Shown here in pieces: positions 10,021 to 16,852 of a stretch of DNA of 64,000 nucleotides. The stretch spans positions 1 through 64,000 of the forward strand of contig JAFEBM010000030.1 of assembly GCA_018242685.1 (NCBI GenBank). The letters run 5' to 3'. The position numbers were made by a program, and so were the translations under genes. This DNA is from Nitrospira sp. GTDB taxonomy: Bacteria; Nitrospirota; Nitrospiria; Nitrospirales; Nitrospiraceae. Numbering within the stretch: position 1 is the first letter of the stretch; each line of letters opens with the position of its first letter. The notes under the pieces are model-generated. The model searched no databases. It saw only the letters and a list, made by a program, of their open reading frames with translations, and was not told the DNA's origin.

Positions 10021-10440
10021 CTAGAATTCTCCTGCGTTCACTTCTCTGACTCGTTCGGCTGGGATGCTGAGTGCGGCTAAGAGGTAGTCTTTAAATTGGG
10101 TGCTATACGGTTGGACGGCGAGCGCTCGTTGCATACAGAGCAACCAGGCATCGCGCTCTTCGTACCCAATGGGAAACTGCTTGTGGAATGCTGGAATGCT
10201 GATCGGCCCATAGTGCTGCTGAAATAGCTTGGGGCCTCCAAGCCAGCCGCAGAGAAAATAGGTAAGTTTCTTGCGTGATTCGGTTAAATCTGGAGGATGC
10301 ATGCTTCTGATGGTTTCAGCCTCAGGCAGCGTATCCATATTGCTGTAGAACTCGTCCACCAAGCGAGTGATTCCCGCGAGTTCACCTGCTTTTTGATACG
10401 GAGTGGTTTGCACGCTGTCTTCCTGTTTACCAACGGACAT
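10021..10440 (-). CDS. glbO: Group II truncated haemoglobin (TrHbO/GlbO type)
   Basis: A 139-residue 2-on-2 globin. The diagnostic run is present: helix B with Tyr (LVDEFYSNMD), the CD/E region FLCGWLGGPKLF, then HYGPISIPAFHKQFPIG, where the His before KQFPIG is the proximal haem ligand, and ERDAWLLCM with the Trp at G8 typical of group II. Such proteins bind oxygen or nitric oxide and are linked to oxygen supply or NO and peroxide handling; the specific role here is inference. It is the last gene of a minus-strand run (TPR protein, receiver-YgfZ fusion, globin) with 21 bp to the gene before it. Confidence 0.93.
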   Translation of the reverse strand: MSVGKQEDSVQTTPYQKAGELAGITRLVDEFYSNMDTLPEAETIRSMHPPDLTESRKKLTYFLCGWLGGPKLFQQHYGPISIPAFHKQFPIGYEERDAWLLCMQRALAVQPYSTQFKDYLLAALSIPAERVREVNAGEF

Positions 10441-10461
10441 AGGTCTTCGTGGGGCCTGGTG

Positions 10462-11967
10462 TTAAGGTTTGACGTAGAAGGGTAGGATCTGAACGGTGGC
10501 CGGATGTCTGCCGCTCTCGAATTCCACGGTCAGTTCCGTGCCGGGTTTGCTGAAATCGCGCAGAGGAAATCCGAATGCAATGGTTTTGTTGAATTGAGGT
10601 GAACGGACGGCGCTGCTGATCCACCCCACCTCACGATCACCGCTGTACAGTTTGGCGCCATGCGGCGGAACGATTGAATCCTTGAGCGCCAGCCCGACCA
10701 GCTTGCGGCGCACGTTGCCGTAGGTATCCATGCGCGCCACGACTTCTTGTCCCGGATAGCACCCTTTGTTCAGGCTGAAAGCTTTTTCCTCAAGATTCGC
10801 TTCGGGCGGGACAATCTCTTCGTTCAAATCCGACCCGGCCTTCGGGAGGCCCGCTTCAATGCGCAACGCTTCTCGTGCGTGGGTTCCGATTGTCTTCATG
10901 CCGAACTTGTCTCCAGCCTGCATGGCGCTGGTCCAAGCGGTTAGGAGGCTGTCCGTGGAGAGCAGCACTTCAATATCAATTTCTCCCGTTTCTTCGGTGC
11001 GTGACACCAGGGCGTGATGTCCGCCGATCTGCGCTGTGACAAAATCGACAGGCTTCAAGTCCGTGACGTCCACACCGAACGCGGATTGCACCACATGCGG
11101 GGCCTTCGGTCCGCTGATCAACAGCAGTCCCCAACTCTCAGCACAGTTTTCCATCTTGGCTTTGGTCCCGTAGAGCAGGAATTTGCGTAGGGCCTGGAAC
11201 GTGGTGTCCCCGATCTCGCCGACGTCTTCCAGCATGACGGCCTCTGTTTGCATGTACAGGCGGAAGTACGTGAGCATCTTGCCTTTGTGGGTCAAGAAGC
11301 TGGAATAGCGGCCTTGCCCCGGTTGGAGGGGAAGGATGTCGTTGCTGATGACGCTTTGTAGCCACTTCACGCGATCCTCGCCCGTGACTCGGAGCTTGCC
11401 ACGATGGGAGAGATCGGCTATCCCCACCGTCTGGCGGACGGCACGATGTTCGGCCGCAACATCGCCATAGTGGGCCGGTATTTCCCAACCGGTGACTTCC
11501 TCAAACGTCGCTCCAAGTTGGGCATGTTGTCCATGAAGCCGGGATCGTTTCACCGACTTCTCGTTTGGCGTTGCGCTGGGTGGCGATTGCTGAGGCTTGA
11601 CAGCGAGGACTTCTTCCACGAGATCTTTTGTCCGAGCAGAAAACTCGTTGCGGGAGACCACCTTCGTTACGCCAAGCGCTTTGGCACGGTTCCAGGTATC
11701 GACTTCTTCATGATTGGCAAAGGCCAGCGTCGGAATGTTCTTCAACCGCGGATCGGCTTTCAGCTGTTCCAACGACTGAAAGGCGTTAAGGGTCTGGTCG
11801 TTCATGTTGAAGATGATCATCCCTGGGCCGGCAGACAAGGCTTTGTCGACAATATCCTGTTGTGTACGGGCTTTTTCAAGCTGGTATTCCGGTTGGCGTA
11901 ATGCGTCCCGGACTTTGGTGTAGAAAAACAGATCGGTAATGGTGACGAGAATAATTTTTGGACTCAT
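10462..11967 (-). CDS. Receiver-like domain fused to a YgfZ/GcvT-like folate-binding protein
   Basis: A 501-residue two-part protein. Residues 1-125 look like a response-regulator receiver fold, but the usual phospho-acceptor position lies in IIFNMND, with Asn where Asp is expected, so phosphorylation is doubtful. After a linker (about 125-150), the rest is a YgfZ/GcvT-like domain carrying the signature KGCYPGQEVVAR. YgfZ proteins are tetrahydrofolate-dependent helpers in iron-sulfur cluster maintenance. The gene lies 12 bp after the TPR gene and 21 bp before a truncated haemoglobin, which suggests a shared function, perhaps protecting Fe-S enzymes from oxygen or NO. The fusion is unusual. 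The start ATG has a GAGGT just before it. Confidence 0.88.
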   Translation of the reverse strand: MSPKIILVTITDLFFYTKVRDALRQPEYQLEKARTQQDIVDKALSAGPGMIIFNMNDQTLNAFQSLEQLKADPRLKNIPTLAFANHEEVDTWNRAKALGVTKVVSRNEFSARTKDLVEEVLAVKPQQSPPSATPNEKSVKRSRLHGQHAQLGATFEEVTGWEIPAHYGDVAAEHRAVRQTVGIADLSHRGKLRVTGEDRVKWLQSVISNDILPLQPGQGRYSSFLTHKGKMLTYFRLYMQTEAVMLEDVGEIGDTTFQALRKFLLYGTKAKMENCAESWGLLLISGPKAPHVVQSAFGVDVTDLKPVDFVTAQIGGHHALVSRTEETGEIDIEVLLSTDSLLTAWTSAMQAGDKFGMKTIGTHAREALRIEAGLPKAGSDLNEEIVPPEANLEEKAFSLNKGCYPGQEVVARMDTYGNVRRKLVGLALKDSIVPPHGAKLYSGDREVGWISSAVRSPQFNKTIAFGFPLRDFSKPGTELTVEFESGRHPATVQILPFYVKP

Positions 11968-11979
11968 ACCTCAACCTAC

Positions 11980-12495
11980 CTAATTCAGCGAACTGACCAA
12001 CCGTCCGAGCGCCTTCTTGGCCAAAACGTAGTTTGGGTCCAAGGCGAGCGCTCTCTTATACGAATCGATGGCCTCGGTCCAGTTCCCTTTTCGTTCGTAC
12101 ACGCGGCCGAGATTGAGATGCGGAAAGGCCGGGCTCTCGTAGCGTTTGGCCTGTATCGCCTTCTGAAACCAGGGAATGGCTTCGTCGAATTCACCTTTCT
12201 CGATCAGATACGCGCCGATATCATTGTAGGGATTGCCGAAGTCCGGGTCCTGCACGATGGCCTTGTGACATTCCTCGATCGCCTCGTCAATCCGTCCCAT
12301 CCAGCTATAGGTCCACCCCAAAAACGTGTAGGCTTCGGCAGTGGGATAGGTGGCAAGCGATCTCTTGTACAGGTTCACGGCCTCTTCCAGTTCACGCTTC
12401 ATCTGTTGCTCATAGGCTTGCTGAAAGAGGTCCCACGCCTGGCGTTTATCTTCCTCACGCCCTTCGCCTTGGATCAAAAAATCTTGAATATCCAT
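11980..12495 (-). CDS. Tetratricopeptide-repeat protein
   Basis: A soluble 171-residue protein made of about four TPR units from residue 20 to the end (AYTFLGWTYSWMGRIDEAIE, NPYNDIGAYLIEKGEFDEAI and LNLGRVYERKGNWTEAIDSY are repeat cores). TPRs mediate protein-protein contact; no enzymatic domain is present. It leads the minus-strand run TPR, receiver-YgfZ, globin. Its start codon directly abuts the palindromic repeat element at 12496-12621, and no Shine-Dalgarno sequence is visible before the ATG, so the element may have replaced the native leader. Confidence 0.88.
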   Translation of the reverse strand: MDIQDFLIQGEGREEDKRQAWDLFQQAYEQQMKRELEEAVNLYKRSLATYPTAEAYTFLGWTYSWMGRIDEAIEECHKAIVQDPDFGNPYNDIGAYLIEKGEFDEAIPWFQKAIQAKRYESPAFPHLNLGRVYERKGNWTEAIDSYKRALALDPNYVLAKKALGRLVSSLN

Positions 12496-12621
12496 GATCA
12501 GGCTGCTGAAAAAGGTCTCCGGCTTCGTTCTCGATCGTGCGGACTCCTCAACGTACTAAGAAGTACGCCTCCGGGTCCACACTTTCTGCGGCCTTGTCGG
12601 ATGACCTTTTTGATCAGCCTG
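12496..12621. repeat. Palindromic intergenic element (REP/MITE-like)
   Basis: A 126-bp element bounded by imperfect inverted repeats: left arm CAGGCTGCTGAAAAAGGTC (12499-12517), right arm GACCTTTTTGATCAGCCTG (12603-12621), which pair along nearly their whole length. A second perfect hairpin sits inside, CGTACT-AAGA-AGTACG (12552-12567). It fills most of the gap between the thiazole synthase and TPR genes. It encodes nothing. The structure fits a REP-like or non-autonomous mobile element, or a folded RNA that could separate thi operon transcription from the genes behind it. I saw no second copy in the window. Confidence 0.7.
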
Positions 12622-12649
12622 TCGGCCGCTGAGGCGTTACTCTATTTCT

Positions 12650-13450
12650 TTACTCTTGTTTCAGTTTCTTCTTAATCAGCTCCGCTCCATATCGTCCGGA
12701 CAGCAGCATCGAGCCGAAGGCCGGGCCCATTCTTGGGGTGCCGTACACGGCGGCGACGGCCAATCCGATGACGAAACAATGGGGATATACTTCGCCGGTA
12801 CGGTCCATGACCTCTTCTTCGGATCGCGCAACCCACATCGCGCCGTTTCCTGGGACCGTATTATACAGGTTTCGCTTGTGAAGGAGCTCAACCAGAACTG
12901 CGTCGTGGCCGGTGGCGTCAACGACGATTTTGCTCTCAAGGGCGATGGGATCGACGTGGATGAGATCATGACCGGCCATCTCGACGGTGGTGCTGTTGAC
13001 GACGACACCTTCCAATAGGCCGTCATTGCGCAGGATGAGGTCCACCACTCGCGTCAGGTTCATGATCTTCGCGCCGGCATTGTACGCGGCAGCAATCAAG
13101 GCTCCTGTGGCGTGCGGTGGATCGACCATATACATCCCCTCGCACTCTTTGATCTTCTTGCAAGGCACGCCGATCTCTTCGAGGATTTCATTCGCGGGTT
13201 CGCAGATCGTCGCCTTGTTCATGAGATATCCGCCGGACCAAAATCCACCACCGAGCGCCAGGCTTTGCTCGATGAGGACTGTGCGAAATCCCATCGCGGC
13301 CAAATCATGCGCGCAAATAAGTCCGGATGGTCCCGCACCGACGATGATGACGTCGCTTTCGATCAGCTGATCAAATTCTTTATAGTACTCCCGGGCGATG
13401 TGCCGGGTGATATCTCGTTCACGTAACGGGGCAGGTTTCGGTTTGGCCAT
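12650..13450 (-). CDS. thi4: Thiazole synthase, Thi4 family (ADP-thiazole synthase)
   Basis: A 266-residue FAD/NAD-fold protein of the Thi4 family, making the thiazole half of thiamine from NAD and glycine. Seen: the dinucleotide-binding motif SDVIIVGAGPSGLICAHDLA near residue 32, GGGFWSGGYLMNKATI, and the C-terminal GMYMVDPPHATGALI and PRMGPAFGSMLLSG. In the segment DATGHDAVLVELLHKRN the position that in suicide-type (yeast) Thi4 is the sulfur-donating Cys appears to be His, as in archaeal sulfide-using enzymes; this alignment is by eye. Ten bp after thiC in one transcript controlled by the TPP riboswitch. AGGAG precedes the ATG. Confidence 0.9.
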   Translation of the reverse strand: MAKPKPAPLRERDITRHIAREYYKEFDQLIESDVIIVGAGPSGLICAHDLAAMGFRTVLIEQSLALGGGFWSGGYLMNKATICEPANEILEEIGVPCKKIKECEGMYMVDPPHATGALIAAAYNAGAKIMNLTRVVDLILRNDGLLEGVVVNSTTVEMAGHDLIHVDPIALESKIVVDATGHDAVLVELLHKRNLYNTVPGNGAMWVARSEEEVMDRTGEVYPHCFVIGLAVAAVYGTPRMGPAFGSMLLSGRYGAELIKKKLKQE

Positions 13451-13459
13451 GTGGTGCTC

Positions 13460-15376
<1,917 letters not shown>

Positions 15377-15463: not shown

Positions 15464-15484
15464 GACCCTCACGAGATCCGCTTT

Positions 15485-15570
15485 CGTCCGGCTTCCCTAC
15501 GCTGGTATTACCCAGGTCAGGTTGTGAGGGTCGTCCGATCATTCGGACTCTCAGCCTCAAGGCCCCCCTA
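15485..15570 (-). promoter_or_regulatory. TPP riboswitch (THI element)
   Basis: Read on the minus strand, the leader shows the conserved thi-box parts in order: GGGGGGCC, GGCTGAGAG, then ACCCTCACAACCTGA, CTGGGTAATACCAGCG and TAGGGAAGC. These are the pyrimidine- and pyrophosphate-binding arms of the TPP aptamer. A terminator follows before thiC, so control is by transcription attenuation: bound TPP should end transcription of thiC-thi4. Confidence 0.95.
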
Positions 15571-15691
15571 GCTCTAGCTATTGACGCTGATCGTATTCCT
15601 CGGAGATGAGCCAAGTCAATCGGTTATTAGACCCATTCCGCCTACCATCCTTTGGGTGACTGACTAGGACTTTTCCTCATAGGGCCATTCG

Positions 15692-15720
15692 TTGATTGTG
15701 AGGGGAGGCTATCGTAGAAT
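15692..15720 (+). promoter_or_regulatory. Sigma-70-type promoter for nadA
   Basis: TTGATT (15692-15697) and TAGAAT (15715-15720) are 17 bp apart, with the expected start of transcription about 20 bp before the chosen GTG of nadA. A partial copy of the CTAGGA-N4-TCCT box (15664-15679) lies 35 bp before the -10, the same distance as in front of the RND pump, but its second half-site is poor. Confidence 0.45.
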
Positions 15721-15748
15721 GAATTCCCTTACGGTTGGAGGAATTATT

Positions 15749-16852
15749 GTGACGGCTACTGCGACAGTATCGAGGCCAATCACCGAGTACCAGACGCAGC
15801 CGGCGGAGGAATTATATCGCCGGACGGCAGCGGCGAAGAGTACGCTTGGTGAGCGAGTGATGATTCTGGGCCACAATTACCAGCGGGATGAAGTCATTCA
15901 GCATGCCGATTTTCGCGGTGACTCGCTTATGTTGTCGAAATTGGCCGCCGAACGCTCGGAACGCCCCCACATCGTCTTTTGTGGCGTGCACTTTATGGCC
16001 GAGACGGCGGACATCCTCAGCCGTTCTCAACAAACAGTGATCCTGCCGGACATGGCTGCTGGTTGCTCGATGGCTGATATGGCGGCGATCGAACAGGTTG
16101 ACCAGTGTTGGGAAGCATTGGGACGTGTGGTTCCCGTGGAAGACACCGTGATGCCGGCGGTCTATGTCAACTCCGCGGCGGTGCTCAAGGCGTTTTGTGG
16201 CGAGCATGGAGGAATCACCTGCACGTCATCCAATGCGAAAGCGGTGATTGAATGGTGCTGGGCCAGGCGAGAAAAAATCCTCTTCTTTCCTGATGAACAC
16301 TTGGGCCGTAATACGGCGAACAAAATGGGCGTTCCCCGCGAACAGATGATCGTGTGGGACCCCTACCAACCCAACGGCGGGAATACCAAGGAGGCTATCA
16401 AACGAGCCACACTGATCTTATGGAAAGGTCATTGCAGCGTCCATCAAATGTTTCAACCGGTCCATGTGGATCATTTCCGCAAGCAGTATCCGGACGGCAA
16501 CGTCATTGTGCATCCAGAATGCCACGAAAACGTGGTCAATAAGGCGGATCTCATCGGATCGACCGAGTTCATCATTCGTACGGTGACCGCCGCGCCGGCC
16601 GGCACGGCGTGGGCAATTGGGACGGAACTGAATCTCGTCAATCGACTGAAGCATGAACTCACCGATAAAAAAGTGTTCTTCCTGTCATCCACGGTCTGTC
16701 AGTGCGCCACCATGTTCCGAATCGATGCAGCACACCTCTGCTGGGCCATGGAGAATCTGGCCGAAGGCCAGGTCGTCAACCGCATCGTGGTACCGGAAGA
16801 CGACAAGCGCTGGGCGAAGGTTGCATTGGACCGCATGATGGCCATCAGTTAG
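15749..16852 (+). CDS. nadA: Quinolinate synthase
   Basis: Condenses iminoaspartate with dihydroxyacetone phosphate to quinolinate in NAD synthesis, using a [4Fe-4S] cluster. All landmarks are present: ILGHNYQRDEVIQ, DSLMLSK, FCGVHFMAETADIL, GCSMADMA, ITCTSSNA, HPECHENV and STVCQCATMFRID, including three conserved cysteines (CTSS, PECH, TVCQ). I chose the GTG at 15749 because GGAGG stands about 7 bp before it, giving 367 residues; an ATG at 15692 is in frame but has no such signal and overlaps the promoter. No nadB or nadC is adjacent. Confidence 0.95.
   Translation: MTATATVSRPITEYQTQPAEELYRRTAAAKSTLGERVMILGHNYQRDEVIQHADFRGDSLMLSKLAAERSERPHIVFCGVHFMAETADILSRSQQTVILPDMAAGCSMADMAAIEQVDQCWEALGRVVPVEDTVMPAVYVNSAAVLKAFCGEHGGITCTSSNAKAVIEWCWARREKILFFPDEHLGRNTANKMGVPREQMIVWDPYQPNGGNTKEAIKRATLILWKGHCSVHQMFQPVHVDHFRKQYPDGNVIVHPECHENVVNKADLIGSTEFIIRTVTAAPAGTAWAIGTELNLVNRLKHELTDKKVFFLSSTVCQCATMFRIDAAHLCWAMENLAEGQVVNRIVVPEDDKRWAKVALDRMMAIS

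Follow-up and report, generated by a model that had tools for sequence, protein, structure and literature searches.

A receiver/YgfZ fusion in a conserved thiamine gene cluster of Nitrospira, a possible iron-sulfur helper module

On the minus strand of contig JAFEBM010000030.1 of Nitrospira sp. (assembly GCA_018242685.1), of which we analyzed positions 1 to 64,000 (hereafter the window), one open reading frame (ORF; 10462-11967, 501 residues) joins a receiver-like domain (REC) to a YgfZ domain. What process does this fusion serve, and which protein is its client? An earlier reading made from the letters alone (the sequence-only reading) had placed it in one operon with a small tetratricopeptide repeat (TPR) protein and a truncated globin of group II, and had proposed a module that guards iron-sulfur (Fe-S) clusters against oxygen or nitric oxide (NO). 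The three ORFs were found on the minus strand at 11980-12495, 10462-11967 and 10021-10440, and this part of the gene set is real; the reading had missed what lies upstream, namely a thiamine pyrophosphate (TPP) riboswitch, thiC and thi4. The predicted operon in the window thus runs, on one strand, from the riboswitch through thiC, thi4, TPR and REC/YgfZ to the globin gene, with the following features.

15477..15579, minus strand: TPP riboswitch aptamer, 5' of thiC (Rfam RF00059, 72.6 bits, cut-off 54.3)
13460..15364, minus strand: thiC, radical S-adenosylmethionine (SAM) [4Fe-4S] hydroxymethylpyrimidine phosphate (HMP-P) synthase (NF006763, 1073 bits, cut-off 650)
12650..13450, minus strand: thi4, non-Cys (His-type) sulfide-dependent ADP-thiazole synthase family (TIGR00292, 249.2 bits, cut-off 148.3)
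12496..12649, minus strand: dispersed repeat in the thi4/TPR interval, not a module part (diverged copies in related loci)
11980..12495, minus strand: small TPR protein, 171 aa, with the motif DFGNPYNDIGAYLIE (Pfam TPR_1/TPR_2)
11593..11967, minus strand: predicted pseudo-receiver domain, fusion residues 1-125, with N54 at 11806-11808 (model and structure matches)
11557..11592, minus strand: predicted flexible linker, fusion residues 126-137 (predicted local distance difference test (pLDDT) <50 at 126-136)
10462..11556, minus strand: YgfZ/COG0354 domain, residues 138-501 and stop, with KGCYPGQEVVAR at 10732-10767 (GCV_T, GCV_T_C, TIGR03317)
10021..10440, minus strand: truncated globin, present in part of the genus only (bacterial-like globin family PF01152, 86.8 bits, cut-off 21)

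We examined the gene order in a sample of 198 genomes of the phylum, window included, which holds 55 other Nitrospirales genomes. A YgfZ gene was present in 53 of these, and in all 53 loci compared the order and strand thiC-thi4-TPR-REC-YgfZ were kept; the arrangement, whose uniqueness to one genome would have spoken against the sequence-only reading, is therefore not peculiar to the window. In the remaining two genomes (G036 and G177) none of YgfZ, TPR, Thi4 and ThiC was found. Of the 52 unfused loci, 27 have REC and YgfZ at most 30 nt apart, and an overlap of 4 nt is seen in 17, with start codons chosen by rule. The gaps between TPR and REC are mostly short (the long ones are 913 nt in L078 and 788 nt in L085), and the thi4-TPR gap does not exceed 30 nt in 5 of the 53 loci. 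A TPP riboswitch precedes thiC in 14 of the 15 loci of families f1 and f2 that were scanned, window included; in the one miss (L195) the contig starts at thiC. The TPR protein is invariant in 70 of its 171 columns among 54 sequences. In a separate search of 146 genomes, which underlies the counts for the class given below, the ten without a match at 1e-60 were left out before counting, namely G036, G177 and G202 in the genus, G304 and G312 elsewhere in the order, and G119, G260, G262, G265 and G267 elsewhere in the class; YgfZ is present at 39% in G312, and G119 has a weaker YgfZ match.

As judged from its sequence, the YgfZ domain belongs to COG0354, within which it is long and resembles GcvT, and it is not a YgfZ of the E. 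coli type. Fusion residues 144-498 match GCV_T and GCV_T_C of Pfam; the protein passes the YgfZ signature TIGR03317 (80.6 bits, cut-off 49) and fail the GcvT models TIGR00528 (182 bits, cut-off 235.85) and NF001567 (214.9 bits, cut-off 300) as well as that for the E. coli-type YgfZ equivalog, NF007110 (64.3 bits, cut-off 219). The stretch KGCYPGQEVVAR at residues 401-412 fits KGCY-x-GQE-x3-R/K and is invariant in our homologue alignment A5. KGCYxGQE was found in all COG0354 rows (KGCYTGQE in E. coli YgfZ) and in neither of two GcvT rows, from E. coli and from the window's own genome, while KGCYxGQEx3R has been described as nearly the sole conserved motif of IBA57/YgfZ (PMC6006212). Motif and signature together bear out the name YgfZ that the sequence-only reading had given. 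The second PF01571 protein of the window's genome is a true GcvT (302.5 bits), and no further YgfZ was found there; in a tree the GcvT rows separate from the YgfZ rows with a support of 100/99, and E. coli YgfZ forms a very long branch. With E. coli YgfZ and IBA57 the Nitrospira domain thus shares the motif, a TIGR03317 score above the cut-off and the GcvT-like fold family, whereas it is longer than E. coli YgfZ (approximately 363 versus 326 aa), lies below the NF007110 cut-off, is encoded in a thiamine operon and has a receiver partner, to which it is fused in some species. In the model, the KGCYPGQE loop (residues 401-409 and 415-418; approximately 10714-10767) has the lowest confidence within the YgfZ domain, and it is perhaps mobile without folate or a partner.

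The GcvT-like architecture, which is full-length, raises the question of whether the domain is a folate enzyme acting on a one-carbon product from thiamine synthesis and not an Fe-S factor at all. ThiC releases formate and CO, which would provide such a product. Moreover, phmmer searches with the YgfZ domain placed GcvT structures on top (1yx2, 1e-50) and YgfZ 1nrk far below (7e-9), a ranking that speaks against an Fe-S helper. However, the domain carries KGCYxGQEx3R, the IBA57/YgfZ motif (PMC6006212), and does not reach the GcvT cut-offs (182 versus 235.85 bits), and we regard a folate enzyme as very unlikely. The same ranking sets an annotation trap, as YgfZ-type proteins of this lineage score best against GcvT.

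The presence of a helper gene in a vitamin B1 operon suggests that the helper is devoted to the maturation of B1-forming enzymes. We tentatively favor the reading that the fusion is part of an Fe-S helper module linked to thiamine in the class Nitrospiria, whose client would most likely be ThiC. In E. coli, the radical SAM [4Fe-4S] enzymes MiaB and RimO require YgfZ (PMC10002905), and ThiC is a radical SAM [4Fe-4S] enzyme as well (PMC6006212); servicing of ThiC is the simplest reading. In the proposed mechanism, REC would bind YgfZ, and REC and the TPR protein together would dock YgfZ to its client. YgfZ would then insert or repair the [4Fe-4S] cluster of ThiC, a role that it has for MiaB and RimO in E. 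coli, and low TPP would act through the riboswitch to raise enzyme and helper together. A more specific version, in which a YgfZ lineage has specialized for thiamine, with the pseudo-receiver as an adaptor and the TPR protein as a scaffold that steer it to ThiC/Thi4 under TPP control through one riboswitch, is conceivable, if doubtful. COG0354 genes frequently cluster with Fe-S protein genes, as the 2011 plant-prokaryote survey reported (PMC3223725); thiamine genes are not named in its COG0354 passages. We found no account of a thiC-thi4-TPR-REC-YgfZ cluster, or of a thiamine-tied YgfZ/IBA57 factor with a pseudo-receiver partner, in open-access PMC full texts.

Does the link to thiamine hold beyond the order? 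Among 80 named loci of the TPR family, a REC gene adjoins TPR in all 49 loci titled as Nitrospirota (of any rank) and in none of the 31 others. A relative of YgfZ was found in 29 genomes of the class outside the order, and in 20 of them a PF01910 gene (Thiamine_BP in Pfam, 'MTH1187 family thiamine-binding protein' in NCBIfam; hereafter TBP) lies on the same strand, 19 times within 1.4 kb. It is downstream of YgfZ in 14 genomes (families f5, f8 and f38); in the other six (f7 and f36; in G163 at 4 kb with an insertion) it lies upstream, before TPR-REC-YgfZ or TPR-YgfZ. Within the order, both loci of family f34 consist of TBP followed by thiC-thi4-glycosyltransferase (GT2)-REC-YgfZ, without TPR and with a TPP riboswitch before thiC in each; two more f34 contigs are too short to judge the order. 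The PF01910 neighbors in 20 of 29 genomes and the f34 layout thus indicate that the thiamine link recurs in several arrangements. This recurrence bears on a competing explanation, in which the module performs general Fe-S repair under oxidative stress, is transcribed from the thiamine operon by chance and has no dedicated client. YgfZ/IBA57 does serve many [4Fe-4S] enzymes (PMC6006212), and the window's genome has no other YgfZ, since PF01571 finds only GcvT and the fusion gene; however, recurrent thiamine-type neighbors and control by TPP, not by stress, speak against general repair, which we consider unlikely.

Several observations weigh against a thiamine-dedicated helper. As YgfZ serves a wide range of Fe-S proteins, co-regulation alone, with no dedicated client, would be expected to give the same picture. 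Among the 29 class genomes, six lack TBP beside YgfZ (in three others the YgfZ locus is at a contig end), and the dropped genome G119 likewise has no TBP adjoining. A TBP gene is present in 73 of 77 Nitrospirales genomes, and in the five f1, f2 and f33 loci viewed it lies elsewhere than the module; 'thiamine-binding protein' is, for PF01910, a name given by homology only. The module of the sister families does not adjoin thiC/thi4, and G258 and G259 carry both elsewhere. Our scan found no TPP riboswitch at the f7 module loci L126 and L115. In the L148 genome a TPR/REC/YgfZ triple comes with no ThiC or Thi4 match, although a run of N just upstream makes this case uninformative.

Other loci of these surveys showed further arrangements. 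In G163 (L090:9219-12208), REC and YgfZ stand apart with a transposase-like ORF and a tRNA between them, which looks like an insertion into the module, and in G185 (L106:1083-3485) a PF01910 homologue is divergent from thiC. Outside Nitrospirota, the gene next after TPR in a deltaproteobacterium (L120:7938-8824) encodes an A-type Fe-S carrier (PF01521), and A-type-like carriers lie 0.8 to 4.3 kb from TPR in three acidobacterial loci. In 7 of the 31 non-Nitrospirota TPR loci, a regular-expression search picked out YgfZ or an A-type Fe-S carrier no more than 5 kb away; this count is uncontrolled, with a Pfam check for L120 only, and is too weak to be used as evidence. By eye, the TPR gene of two Omnitrophota loci (L109 and L134) sits between a gene for a metallo-beta-lactamase (MBL)-fold hydrolase and the start of an apparent nuo (complex I) operon.

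The client could also be the second thiamine enzyme of the cluster. The window's Thi4 has a His at the position that we take to be the sulfur-donor site, where its HVDP aligns with HIDP of 4y4m (methanogen Thi4 structures). On this alternative, a catalytic His-type Thi4 at work in an aerobe would have its metal and sulfide chemistry loaded or protected by the module, without which the Nitrospira enzyme would be inactive. Thi4 is present in every cluster (53 of 53 loci); yet, to our knowledge, it requires no Fe-S cluster. G163 has TPR and REC beside the TBP gene with no Thi4 match, and class genomes outside the order have thiC-thi4 with no module adjoining. Of 24 genus genomes, 21 encode ThiG as well, including that of the window, which has ThiS-ThiG-ThiE (L105:4974-6753), and Thi4 is therefore not the sole thiazole route in the genus. 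In favor of Thi4 as client, THI4 of N. defluvii, an aerobe, was soluble but is listed among the THI4s whose activity in E. coli dthiG was low or undetectable (PMC8454699, Table 1), and the genome of this species (FP929003.1, locus L151) carries the full cluster. In that study by Joshi et al. (2021), 23 of the 26 tested THI4s were expressed well and soluble; however, seven THI4s failed the assay (PMC8454699), and many causes of failure are possible. The non-Cys THI4 neighborhoods described there concern the same His-type Thi4, and the neighbors in its passages on them are TRASH and cobalt/nickel genes, with TPR, receiver and YgfZ not among them (PMC8454699). On balance we consider Thi4 an unlikely client, though the main rival to ThiC.

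How could a receiver domain contribute to such a module? The N-terminal part does not pass Response_reg PF00072 (17.5 bits, cut-off 30.2), but a model of residues 1-128 built with 39 homologues has a mean pLDDT of 93.3, a predicted template modeling score (pTM) of 0.88 and the element order of a receiver. Its best matches by Foldseek and VIA-align are nearly all receivers (KdpE, Z 18.3; PleD, 18.1), with one USP11 chain ranking among them. The CheY-like fold that the sequence-only reading had supposed is thereby supported by prediction and comparison, and the replacement of the acceptor Asp by Asn is real (N54). Among the 53 order homologues, 44 have N and 9 have D at the acceptor position. 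By HMMER and MAFFT alignments, T11-D12 correspond to the acid pair, of which one acid is lost, A84 to the Thr, and S105/R106 to the Lys of the phosphorylation site. The window's REC thus shares the (beta-alpha)5 fold with KdpE, PleD, DivK and CheY (Z approximately 17-18) but lacks their acceptor Asp, Thr and Lys and has an incomplete acid pair; instead, the stretches TDxFFYTK, ANHEE and SRNEFS are near-fixed. In family f7 and in L108 the acceptor is D, and the Response_reg cut-off is passed in L113, L094 and L090 with 33.7 to 42.5 bits. Because N prevails in the order and D is found in f7 and L108, REC is predicted to have kept the receiver fold but lost phosphorylation in the course of this lineage, with other stretches staying nearly fixed. 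The relatives with D, including the nine order loci, could argue for a genuine phospho-switch at least there; given N in 44 of 53 order loci and in the window, the residues at the Thr and Lys positions and the lost acid, we regard this as highly improbable.

The fusion itself is, by its distribution, apparently a late variant of two adjacent genes. A stop-free fused REC-YgfZ ORF is present in 7 of 79 genus genomes, 71 of which have a YgfZ gene, and in 1 of the 53 order loci sampled. The linkers are homologous across the seven fused species, which together with the stop-free ORFs rules out a frame artefact; the counts rule out the fusion as an ancestral or general state. At the former YgfZ start codon the seven fusions have ATG (three), GTG (three) or CTG (one), and at least the species with CTG can therefore do without a separate YgfZ. 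A tree of YgfZ genes from the window and 36 genus loci (37 rows) does not unite the seven fusions in one clade; four changes are needed, and the approximately unbiased (AU) test rejects a single clade (p 0.0154). A single fusion event followed by exchange between species or by reversion is our guess. Because genes that are always adjacent became one protein (the Rosetta stone argument), binding between REC and YgfZ is hinted at, and the two are probable partners. A model of the full fusion (pTM 0.68) has a disordered linker at residues 126-136 and few REC rows in its alignment, and is therefore uninformative on how REC and YgfZ dock.

The globin gene, on which the oxygen/NO guard idea depended, behaves differently from the rest of the operon. 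It adjoins YgfZ in 12 of the 53 order loci, all of the window's genus; in a count of the genus it adjoins YgfZ in 32 of 37 loci, 31 times within 40 nt, and outside the genus in 0 of 36. TPR, fusion and globin as a conserved unit are thus ruled out, whereas thiC and thi4 are always upstream. As it is restricted to the window's genus, the globin is apparently a late addition and not part of the core. A guard against oxygen or NO would be at best a genus-level addition, in which the globin of some species may act as a local O2/NO scavenger, and the constant theme is thiamine synthesis.

Two further features lie in or beside the cluster. The repeat of approximately 150 nt between thi4 and TPR occurs in the window and in many related Nitrospira loci, with many diverged copies, as a dispersed family. 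On the plus strand, nadA for quinolinate synthase (15692-16852) is divergent from thiC in the window; nadA is divergent from thiC in 39 of the 53 order loci, with a start-to-start distance of at most 1 kb in 35. Quinolinate synthase is another [4Fe-4S] enzyme, en route to NAD, and NAD is a substrate of Thi4.

The precise role of YgfZ/IBA57 has been called uncharacterized (PMC10002905), and a YgfZ locked in one biosynthetic operon, whose partner a natural fusion points out, makes a compact system for naming and testing a client and a partner. There is a search for catalytic Thi4 enzymes active in air as a replacement for the suicidal plant enzyme (PMC8454699), and helper genes next to the Thi4 of an aerobe, when that enzyme had failed by itself, are a direct lead. 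If the version with adaptor and scaffold is true, Nitrospira would possess a vitamin-regulated cofactor-repair system, which would explain why its Thi4 failed alone in E. coli.

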